Shown: positions 53,701-59,384 of the stretch, one piece after another
Position numbering within the stretch: position 1 is the stretch's first letter
Layout of the letters: every line of letters begins with the position of its first letter
From: Mugil cephalus
Taxonomy: Eukaryota; Chordata; Actinopteri; Mugiliformes; Mugilidae
Length of the DNA stretch: 64,000 nucleotides
NCBI RefSeq assembly: GCF_022458985.1
Contig: NC_061772.1
Coordinates: 10,468,001 to 10,532,000, forward strand
Direction of reading: 5' to 3'
The notes under the pieces: model-generated
The model's database searches: none
What the model saw: only the letters and a program-made list of their open reading frames with translations
Told to the model about the DNA's origin: nothing
Position numbers and translations under genes: made by a program

Positions 53701-56700
53701 TTTGTCTCCAGAGCCATCTGATAACATGGACCAAGCGTTTCAAGGCCAGTGGAGTGGAGGGCATGGATGTTGTCCAGCTGCTCAACAAAGCTATCAAAAA
53801 ACGAGGAGTGAGTCTCACCTTCAGTCTTGTTGGTCCTAATGCAGTCGCTTTCATTCTGAGTGGGATGCAGAATGGCACAGGTGACCTTATCACTTCTATG
53901 CATGCTTTAATTTGATTCAGGACTATGAGGCGGACATCATGGCCGTAGTGAATGATACTGTGGGAACGATGATGACCTGTGGCTTTGATGACCAGCGCTG
54001 TGAAGTCGGCATCATCATAGGTACTGTCCTTCAGAATCGCTCGGGGACCAATCCTGTTCAATACATCCGATCAGTAAAACAGATTAAACTGTAAGCATTT
54101 GTGTGTCTGTGTTTTTAGGTACTGGTACTAATGCGTGCTACATGGAGGAGCTGCGCCACATTGACCTGGTGGAGGGAGACGAAGGCAGGATGTGTGTGAA
54201 CACTGAGTGGGGAGCCTTCGGAGACGACGGCAGGCTGGAAGACATCAGGACAGAGTTTGACAGAGAGGTAGACCGAGGCTCTCTCAACCCAGGCAAACAG
54301 CTGTAAGTTAAACCCCAAAGTAACTAGTAACTAGTGATATCGGCTGTGAAAGAACACCTAACCACTGAACATTATGATACAGTGTTATTTACCCAAATGT
54401 CAACATATTTAAGAAAAAAATAAATAAAATGTCGCCTGTTCTATCTCTGTGCGGTAGATTTGAGAAGATGGTCAGTGGGATGTACATGGGGGAGCTGGTT
54501 CGTATCATCCTGGTGAAGATGGCCAGAGAAGGGATGCTGTTTGAGGGCAGGATCACCCCCGAGCTGCTCACTAAAGGGAAGTTTGAGACCAAGCACGTTT
54601 CAGCCATAGAGAAGTAAGTTACACCATAATCATACAGAGTAAAACGCACTTGCTTTACCAAATGTTCAAATAAATCAAAATATTGTCACATTTAATCATT
54701 TCTGATTGTTTTTTCTTTGTCTTTGTAACTCTCTGCTGTTTAGGAGTAAGGAAGGGTTGAGCAAGGCCAAAGAGATTTTAACCAAACTTGGTGTGGAGCC
54801 CTCGATGGACGACTGCATCGCTGTGCAACATGTGTGTATTGCCGGGAAACCTGCCGTTATAAAGTCTTTATAAGTACTCTGTGTTCCGCTATAAAAAAAT
54901 GTAATTCAGTGTAATGCAATGTAATCATTAACTTAGATGTCCCTTAAGAAGCTCAGTTTGGTAGTGAAGTAATTTCCATATTAAGGTCTTGCAATCTTCC
55001 AGTGCTGCTGGATTAACCTCTGTCCTCACTGCTACTCCTTCTTCAGGTTTGTGCCATCGTGTCTTTCCGCTCTACCAACCTGATAGCTGCCACGTTGGCT
55101 GGCATCCTGTGGAGGCTGAAGGAGAACAAAGGAGTAGCACGTCTCCGAACCACTGTCGGTATCGATGGATCTCTGTACAAGATGCATCCACAGTAAGTGC
55201 TGATAAGATAAAGGACGGGATAAATTTTTTTTTTTATAGATTTGTGTTTATTTAACTTCTCTCAAGTTTTATCACATCACATTTCGTGTGTGTAAAATCT
55301 CTTATATAATCTCTTATACGATGCTACCTGTTGTTACCAGTTTATCATCATTACCGTCTATAGAAGAAAATCTTAGAAGTTCAGCTCTTAACATTTTTAT
55401 ATCTTTTCCAGATACGCCCGTCGTCTTCATAAGACGGTGCGACGTTTGGTCCCGGACTCTGACGTCCGATTCCTCCTCTCAGAGAGTGGCAGTGGAAAGG
55501 GTGCTGCCATGGTGACAGCCGTGGCCTACAGACTCGCCGAACAGTCGCGTCACATCGTCCAAATACTGTCTGAATTCCGTCTCACGACTCAGCAGCTGCT
55601 TGAGGTAAGAAGACACCACGCTGTGTGAATTCTGCCACCTGCCATGTTTAGATAACCATCGTCATTAAAGTATTCTTAACTTCTCAAGGTTAAGAACCGA
55701 ATGAGGATAGAAATCCAAAATGGCCTTTCGAAGAGCACTCAGGATACTGCTACTGTCAAAATGCTGCCAACCTTTGTACGAAGCACTCCTGATGGCTCAG
55801 GTAACACACGCTGTACAAATCATATCCATGAGATGTGGTGTTTTTGCCACCTCTTTATTTACTCATCTGTTTCTTTATCTGTGTGTCCAGAGAATGGAGA
55901 TTTCCTGGCTTTGGATTTAGGAGGAACCAACTTCAGAGTTCTGTTGGTCAAGATTCGTTCTGGGAAGAGGAGAACGGTGGAGATGCACAACAAGATCTAT
56001 GCTATTCCTCTAGAAGTGATGCAAGGAACAGGAGAGGAGGTGAGACAGACAATCAGGAAAACACTGTGGTAGTTAACATTGATATCATTTGTAGGGAGTA
56101 GTGAGTGAGTCATAGTTTATCTGCTCTTACCCTCCCTGTGTGCAGCTAACATGTGCTGGGTGAGTCGGTGACACAGAAGCACAACATAATTAAGAGAGAG
56201 CCTCTAAATTCCACCGCACTGTGTCACACAGACAACTGAAATTATTAAGCAGTGCCATATAATAGAAACTCCCAATCTTTTACCTTTATCAGTTACGTAC
56301 ATACAGAGTATTCAGTTTTCTTTCTGATTTCATCAAAATCCCTTGAGCTAAAGTGACTGCAATGTGCACACATATCCACTTTTCAGTTTGCTCAGTAATA
56401 AAAGTTAAACATCAGAATACGTTCTGACATATGCTGTTGATATACTGTGTAGTTTTGCATAATTTCACATCCTTCCTCTTCTTCCAGCTGTTTGATCACA
56501 TCGTTCAGTGTATCAGTGACTTCCTCGACTACATGGGGATGAAGAACACTCGTCTCCCTCTGGGCTTCACCTTCTCGTTCCCTTGCAAACAGACCAGCCT
56601 GGATGCTGTAAGTGTTCACACCTTCTTTTCTCTCTGACACTTCACTGTCTCATACCTCCCTGCATCTCTAAACTGCACCTGCTGTTTCTGCAAAATAGGT

Positions 56701-59384: not shown

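Follow-up and report, generated by a model that had tools for sequence, protein, structure and literature searches.

Probable late intron gains at one homologous position in the tandem hexokinase genes hk1 and hkdc1 of Mugil cephalus

Three of the four halves of the tandem hexokinase genes hk1 and hkdc1 of Mugil cephalus carry an extra intron at the same position and in the same phase. The account that we favour, with some reserve, is that these introns were gained late within the tandem pair, by two separate gains in hk1 and one transfer from the hk1 C half to the hkdc1 C half. The DNA analyzed (hereafter the window) is a stretch of 64,000 nucleotides (accession no. NC_061772.1; positions 10,468,001 to 10,532,000).

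Gene models were built from the sequence for hkdc1 (start to stop) and for hk1 (exon 2 to stop; exon 1 is located at positions 44774-44836), with exon junctions set from splice signals, reading frame and protein alignment. As shown in Table 1, in the hk1 N, hk1 C and hkdc1 C halves an exon is divided into two parts, whose lengths sum to 234 bp. The 88/146 phase-0 split before Val-Cys described for these three halves in an earlier note was reproduced to the base, and the hkdc1 N exon, reported there as intact, is indeed open throughout. All three introns have GT-AG ends, and a reading frame extended into them (in the order hk1 N, hk1 C, hkdc1 C) runs into a stop codon at residue 14, 63 and 14, respectively. 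The four halves of the two genes align without gaps at this place, where the residues are Val-Cys or Val-Ser. The exon sequences meeting at the junction form an AG/GT context in hk1 C and hkdc1 C (GAG/GTA), and CAT/GTT, which is not AG/GT, in hk1 N. The hk1 N donor scores 4.8; the scores of the 34 other introns in hk1 and hkdc1 extend from -0.4 to 10.9, and it falls close to the low end of this range.

Table 1. Positions in the window of the 234-bp exons, split or unbroken, and of the extra introns of hk1 and hkdc1 (slashes mark splice junctions or points of division)
Feature	Details	Position	Strand	Basis
hkdc1 N half, 234-bp exon	unbroken, open	34666..34899	+	gene model
hkdc1 extra intron in "305" exon (here 299)	splits 142/157, phase 0, CAG/GTG	35467..35573	+	gene model
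hkdc1 extra intron in C "184" exon	splits 89/149, phase 0	37029..37128	+	gene model
hkdc1 C half, first part of split exon	88 bp, within proposed converted tract	37764..37851	+	gene model
hkdc1 C extra intron	1615 bp, phase 0	37852..39466	+	gene model
hkdc1 C half, second part of split exon	146 bp, within proposed converted tract	39467..39612	+	gene model
hk1 N half, first part of split 234-bp exon	88 bp	54744..54831	+	gene model
hk1 N extra intron	215 bp, phase 0, CAT/GTGTGT...CAG/GTT	54832..55046	+	gene model, splice signals
hk1 N half, second part of split exon	146 bp	55047..55192	+	gene model
hk1 extra intron in 305-bp exon	splits 193/112, phase 0, GAG/GTT	55605..55688	+	gene model
hk1 C half, first part of split exon	88 bp	57906..57993	+	gene model
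hk1 C extra intron	317 bp, phase 0, GAG/GTAAGA...TAG/GTA	57994..58310	+	gene model, splice signals
hk1 C half, second part of split exon	146 bp	58311..58456	+	gene model; Pfam Hexokinase_2 match

The genome from which the window derives (634.8 Mb, 24 contigs) was searched with Hexokinase_2. The search (37 candidates scored) gave 28 matches, which fall within the window and at four loci outside it. Two-half genes were identified on contig C2 (nearest to hk1) and on contig C8, and were named hk1b and hk2, respectively, in this analysis on the basis of similarity; in comparisons with hk1b, the hk1 gene of the window is termed hk1a. The same genome contains two single-domain hexokinase genes, at C15:14577000-14581100 (L015) and C8:7383000-7386500 (L009).

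For the paralogues, an exon was called where a stretch bounded by AG and GT was open and came within 12 bases of the expected length. These models omit hk1b exons 1, 2 and the last, everything upstream of N120 and the last exon in hk2, and the two terminal exons of each single-domain gene; hk1b N163 was left out (C2 N163 had been located by the scan within the 305-bp exon), and hk2 was modelled within set ranges. Standard exon sizes of vertebrate hexokinases were recovered in the 15 exons modelled for hk1b, and no extra introns were found in the modelled exons of the four other genes (15 in hk1b, 14 in hk2 and 7 in each single-domain gene). Deviations of 3-6 bases occur in a few exons (hk2 N156, 162; hk2 C234, 237; C8 single-domain C149, 155). 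The exon that is split in hk1 is unsplit in both halves of hk1b and hk2 and in both single-domain genes (five times 234 bp, and 237 bp in hk2 C). The genome thus holds ten hexokinase halves, three split and seven unsplit, the latter comprising hkdc1 N and measuring 234 bp in six cases and 237 bp in one. The exon size given in the earlier note, which is also that of mammals, is therefore borne out by the seven other halves of this genome.

An extra duplication of hk1 in ray-finned fishes has been reported (PMC1508162), which fits hk1b. The relationships of the genes were examined in a protein tree of hk1a, hk1b, hkdc1, hk2 and human HK1 (N-half exons 120 to 234 and C-half exons 120 to 156; 515 gap-free columns), from which the C 234 exon was left out. 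In the best tree hk1a and hk1b are sisters and hkdc1 lies outside the pair. Among the six topologies tested, the three separating hk1a from hk1b gave AU p values of 0.049, 0.003 and 0.007; the first of these, in which hk1a and hkdc1 are sisters, was not rejected by the KH (0.056) and SH (0.117) tests. Alternatives for the placement of hkdc1 relative to human HK1 gave AU values of 0.82, 0.46 and 0.17.

Identity of position and phase in N and C halves is what would be seen if the intron predated the N/C (or the hk1/hkdc1) duplication and had been lost repeatedly, the first of two explanations offered in the earlier note. We hold this to be highly improbable, since the intron is found in just three of ten halves, both halves of hk1b are unsplit, and several separate losses would be required in this genome alone. 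The structures of mammalian hexokinase genes would add further losses. As the sister gene hk1b has none of the three extra introns of hk1, gain in hk1a is far simpler than loss in seven halves. Judged from these sequences, the extra introns would be gains in the tandem pair, and an old intron lost many times is unlikely.

Compared with the standard exon sizes, the hk1-hkdc1 pair contains six extra introns in total, three more than the earlier note had listed. One of the additional introns is in hk1 and two are in hkdc1 (Table 1). The first of the hkdc1 introns contains no stop in frame, yet with 107 bases it disrupts the reading frame. The coding part of the hkdc1 C "184" exon (36940-37277) is 54 nt longer than in hk1, hk1b and hk2, and the additional sequence encodes a Glu- and Asp-rich stretch of the protein. 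All six extra introns are in phase 0, compared with 14 of the 34 other introns of hk1 and hkdc1 (p 0.010), and four of the six, compared with two of the 34, lie in an AG/GT context (p 0.0022); the hk1 C and hkdc1 C introns were counted as two in both tests. Since the 305-bp linker exon is split at different places in hk1 and hkdc1, the two genes also appear to have gained introns separately.

Every one of the ten halves has a Val codon, and hence GT, at the shared site; in nine of them Cys comes next (GTNTGY). Val codons were ranked as potential donors in the genes without these introns, with the use of a matrix built from 43 paralogue donors; the ranking covered the three hk1 gain sites, the 89/149 site lying outside it. 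Among the 57 Val codons of hk2, the 193/112 site ranks 1, the C site 2 and the N site 5 (p 0.00014), and among the 61 of hk1b they rank 3, 4 and 28, respectively (p 0.026). The C site and the 193/112 site are thus predicted to be clear latent donors in the intron-free paralogues. The N site would qualify only weakly, being strong in hk2 and ordinary in the nearer relative hk1b; His precedes Val at this site in both hk1a and hk1b. At the 142/157 site of hkdc1 no GT was found in hk1b or hk2, so the latent-donor idea leaves that gain unexplained.

Comparison of the C 234 exon with the other 14 exons pointed to copying between the C halves of hk1 and hkdc1. The hk1a-hkdc1 identity in this exon is 0.909 (aa) and 0.831 (nt), against 0.584 and 0.640 in the other 14 exons; the corresponding values are 0.909 and 0.753 against 0.877 and 0.780 for hk1a-hk1b, and 0.870 and 0.775 against 0.585 and 0.630 for hk1b-hkdc1. 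It is the sole exon in which hkdc1 is nearer to hk1 at the nucleotide level than hk1b is. Conversion should leave flanking exons that resemble the donor paralogue more than the sister gene proper, and this pattern was found for hk1 C and hkdc1 C, the tree evidence being borderline. The nucleotide tree of this exon prefers hk1a and hkdc1 as sisters at the edge only (alternatives AU 0.050 and 0.055), the remaining exons of the C half show a weak preference for it as well (AU 0.645 vs. 0.399), and the protein tree of the exon separates no alternatives.

Sites common only to hk1a and hkdc1, only to hk1a and hk1b, and only to hk1b and hkdc1 number 29:11:16 in the C 234 exon and 168:464:150 elsewhere, a contrast inflated by protein constraint. 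At silent third positions (those with one residue in all three genes) the counts are 19:5:7 in the exon and 80:76:54 elsewhere (p 0.008 for the first two classes), and the counts elsewhere also lean to hk1a-hkdc1 over hk1b-hkdc1 (80:54). The excess at fourfold sites is modest (21/35 vs. 84/205, p 0.028) and was not significant in a scan over all fourfold windows of the gene (p 0.61). The residues that hk1 and hkdc1 have in common in the first exon part were also considered as protein evidence for conversion; this proved weak, since human HK2 (IIVKEVC) indicates that most of them are ancestral.

A stretch near the 3' end of the hk1 C intron can be aligned with its counterpart in the hkdc1 C intron; 33 of the 44 columns are identical, and an exact 13-base core (GCAATAATGATAA) is included. 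The score of this pair (20) exceeds the maximum (17) of 363 non-homologous intron pairs and is followed, among homologous pairs, by those of M112/M157 (16) and N100 (14); taken over the 17 homologous pairs compared, the real-intron control is only just significant. In dinucleotide shuffles of all 17 pairs, the C pair, N100 and M112/M157 each gave 0/2000, which indicates that the shuffles are too lenient to single out the C pair and that the real-intron control is the better one. The two ordinary homologous hk1/hkdc1 intron pairs whose 3' ends beat 2000 shuffles are 35731-35812/55801-55890 and 33433-34126/54021-54118; their likeness may reflect a shared acceptor make-up or an older hk1-hkdc1 exchange. 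Over their whole length the C-half introns of hk1 and hkdc1 show no clear likeness, since 11 of 142 control windows score as high, and when a putative internal element was removed from the hkdc1 intron the score fell from 200 to 142, a value reached by 55 of 110 controls. The comparison of the three intron sequences proposed in the earlier note hence yielded a likeness of the 3' ends of the C pair and nothing else that was clear.

These observations can also be read as three independent gains at one hot spot with no conversion, the exon likeness being due to selective constraint and the shared intron end to chance or to a common splicing signal. Such a reading would draw on the 0.87 identity of hkdc1 to human HK1 in the C 234 exon (constraint thus accounts for some of the likeness), on the dissimilarity of the introns as wholes, on the other homologous intron ends that beat shuffles and on the strength of the latent donor in the C halves. 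We nevertheless consider it rather unlikely, given that the intron-end score lies above all of the real-intron control pairs and that silent sites favour hk1a-hkdc1 over hk1a-hk1b. The signals being moderate, the hk1 C and hkdc1 C introns are probably one intron moved by gene conversion. The direction would be from hk1 to hkdc1, because hk1a is as similar to hk1b in the C 234 exon as it is elsewhere, and it is hkdc1 that gains likeness to hk1b.

The hk1 N intron gave a different picture. Its sequence is unlike that of the hk1 C intron (score 11, shuffle mean 13.2), and the first parts of the split exon in hk1 N and hk1 C are identical at 0.31 (aa) and 0.41 (nt), the lowest values of ten exon rows. 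A single gain, with the hk1 C intron copied both to hkdc1 C and, by recombination between halves, to hk1 N, would account for the identical position and phase; we judge it very improbable in view of this lowest-ranking first part and of an intron score below the shuffle mean. The hk1 N intron, bearing no trace of copying, is best read as a separate gain.

The start of the hk1 N intron (54832-54844, GTGTGTATTGCCG) and that of the next exon (55047-55059, GTTTGTGCCATCG) agree at 12 of 13 bases as purine/pyrimidine. This agreement was reached by 6 of 1482 control pairs, and the plain identity (7/13) by 90 of 1482; when the comparison was made against hk1b, the match was 13/13. The 13-base match is possibly a decayed target-site duplication, but its length was chosen by eye and it is hence taken as a hint only.

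The origin of the intron sequences was examined by searches for further copies, in the whole genome for the hk1 N and hk1 C introns and in the window for the other four. Neither hk1 N nor hk1 C has a second place in the genome at E 0.001 (in a search that skips very common words), and in the window the six extra introns match only themselves, the tandem repeat of the hkdc1 intron and one AT-rich stretch. No terminal repeats were found at the intron ends; within this scope, the multi-copy state and terminal repeats that characterize introners are thus not seen.

The hkdc1 C intron contains, at 38047-39115, inverted arms of 19 nt (79% complementary, 1031 nt apart), between which lies a 120-bp tandem repeat (38325-38571). 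We take this arrangement to resemble a non-autonomous DNA transposon; its ends are not flush with the splice sites. The hk1 C intron carries a 13-nt inverted repeat (58007-58161; 92%) with 129 nt between the arms. A region downstream of hk1 (62230-63560) resembles, by eye, a Tc1/mariner-type element.

The introns might be introner-like transposon insertions that chose the same target and may now be too old to recognize. Two observations agree with this, the putative terminal-repeat element inside the hkdc1 intron and the transposon-like character of notothenioid slc26a2 introns as published (PMC12357937). It is nonetheless scarcely probable, as the hk1 N and hk1 C introns each occupy a single genomic place, the matches in the window are limited to those named above, and the ends of the putative element do not coincide with the splice sites.

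We therefore return to late gain in the tandem pair, for which the following course of events may be proposed: (i) hk1 would first have been duplicated into two copies, now on different contigs, the gains in the hk1-hkdc1 pair coming later; (ii) hk1 would have acquired two introns separately, one in its C half and the other at the homologous place in its N half; and (iii) part of hk1 C, comprising its intron (the 3' end) and the exon parts on either side, would have been written onto hkdc1 C by ectopic gene conversion, i.e. "intron transfer". The repeated use of one place would be explained if the conserved Val, mostly Val-Cys (GTNTGY), acts within the coding sequence as a latent 5' splice site, so that an insertion bringing a branch point and an acceptor could be spliced out there with the protein unchanged. 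What we infer is that insertions made the introns, that the transfer ran from hk1 into hkdc1, that hk1 N gained its intron independently, and how the events are timed relative to other fishes. The second explanation of the earlier note, repeated gain or gene conversion at one site, would accordingly apply in both its parts, with copying probable between hk1 C and hkdc1 C and a separate gain in hk1 N.

More tentatively, the conserved Val (mostly Val-Cys) could be regarded as a standing hot spot of intron gain, used in at least two gains in one lineage, with one copy passed by gene conversion to the tandem neighbour. If so, constraint on the protein would guide the siting of new introns. The latent-donor idea yields predictions of the coding sites at which introns should be gained. 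It has long been asked whether introns at shared positions are due to ancestry, to parallel gain or to copying, and here the four halves of the tandem pair, together with the unsplit hk1b and hk2 in one genome, allow the three options to be weighed locally.

A literature search found no paper on intron gain in fish hexokinase genes; comparable cases are known from other genes. The linked melanocortin receptor genes MC2R and MC5R of fishes are described as sharing intron 140c (the "DRY" intron) (PMC3151243), and like hk1 and hkdc1 they are linked ray-finned paralogues with a novel intron at one position and phase. According to that account the fishes have compact genomes, the zebrafish and tetrapod orthologues are without the intron, and the authors read the case as parallel insertion at proto-splice sites (PMC3151243). 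The hexokinase pair differs in that the repeat also occurs inside one gene (N and C halves) and in that a trace of conversion was tested, with a same-genome sister copy as control. For slc26a1 and slc26a2 of Eurypterygii, intron gains with convergent insertion sites are reported and dated in 81 vertebrates (PMC12357937). The likeness to hk1 lies in several introns gained in one fish gene, some of them at paralogue intron sites; our case, unlike that of slc26, concerns a single genome, but tests of splice sites and of conversion have been added.

Fish serpin genes contain, as described in PMC2746811, several novel ray-finned introns at proto-splice sites, five of seven lying between codons, as do all six extra introns of hk1 and hkdc1. 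Unlike for hk1, an internal duplication whose homologous places took up introns more than once is not described in the portions of the serpin study drawn on here (PMC2746811). Across eukaryotes, parallel gain is estimated to account for about 8% of shared intron positions and to be practically absent between close lineages (PMC2151770), and for this reason it is worthwhile to propose for the hexokinase genes a cause that acts locally, for instance a latent splice site.

Transfer of introns between paralogues by recombination has been reviewed, with three events (Mycosphaerella, Aspergillus and Chironomus) given in Table 1 of that review (PMC3443670). In these cases, as in hk1 C and hkdc1 C, a same-site intron is found in a sister paralogue with similar flanks. 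The proposed hexokinase transfer differs from those reviewed in that it concerns a vertebrate tandem pair and seems to be old, as the introns now align over no more than a stretch close to their 3' ends. With parallel gain, convergent insertion sites and intron transfer already in print, the hk1-hkdc1 pair is an instructive new case of known processes.
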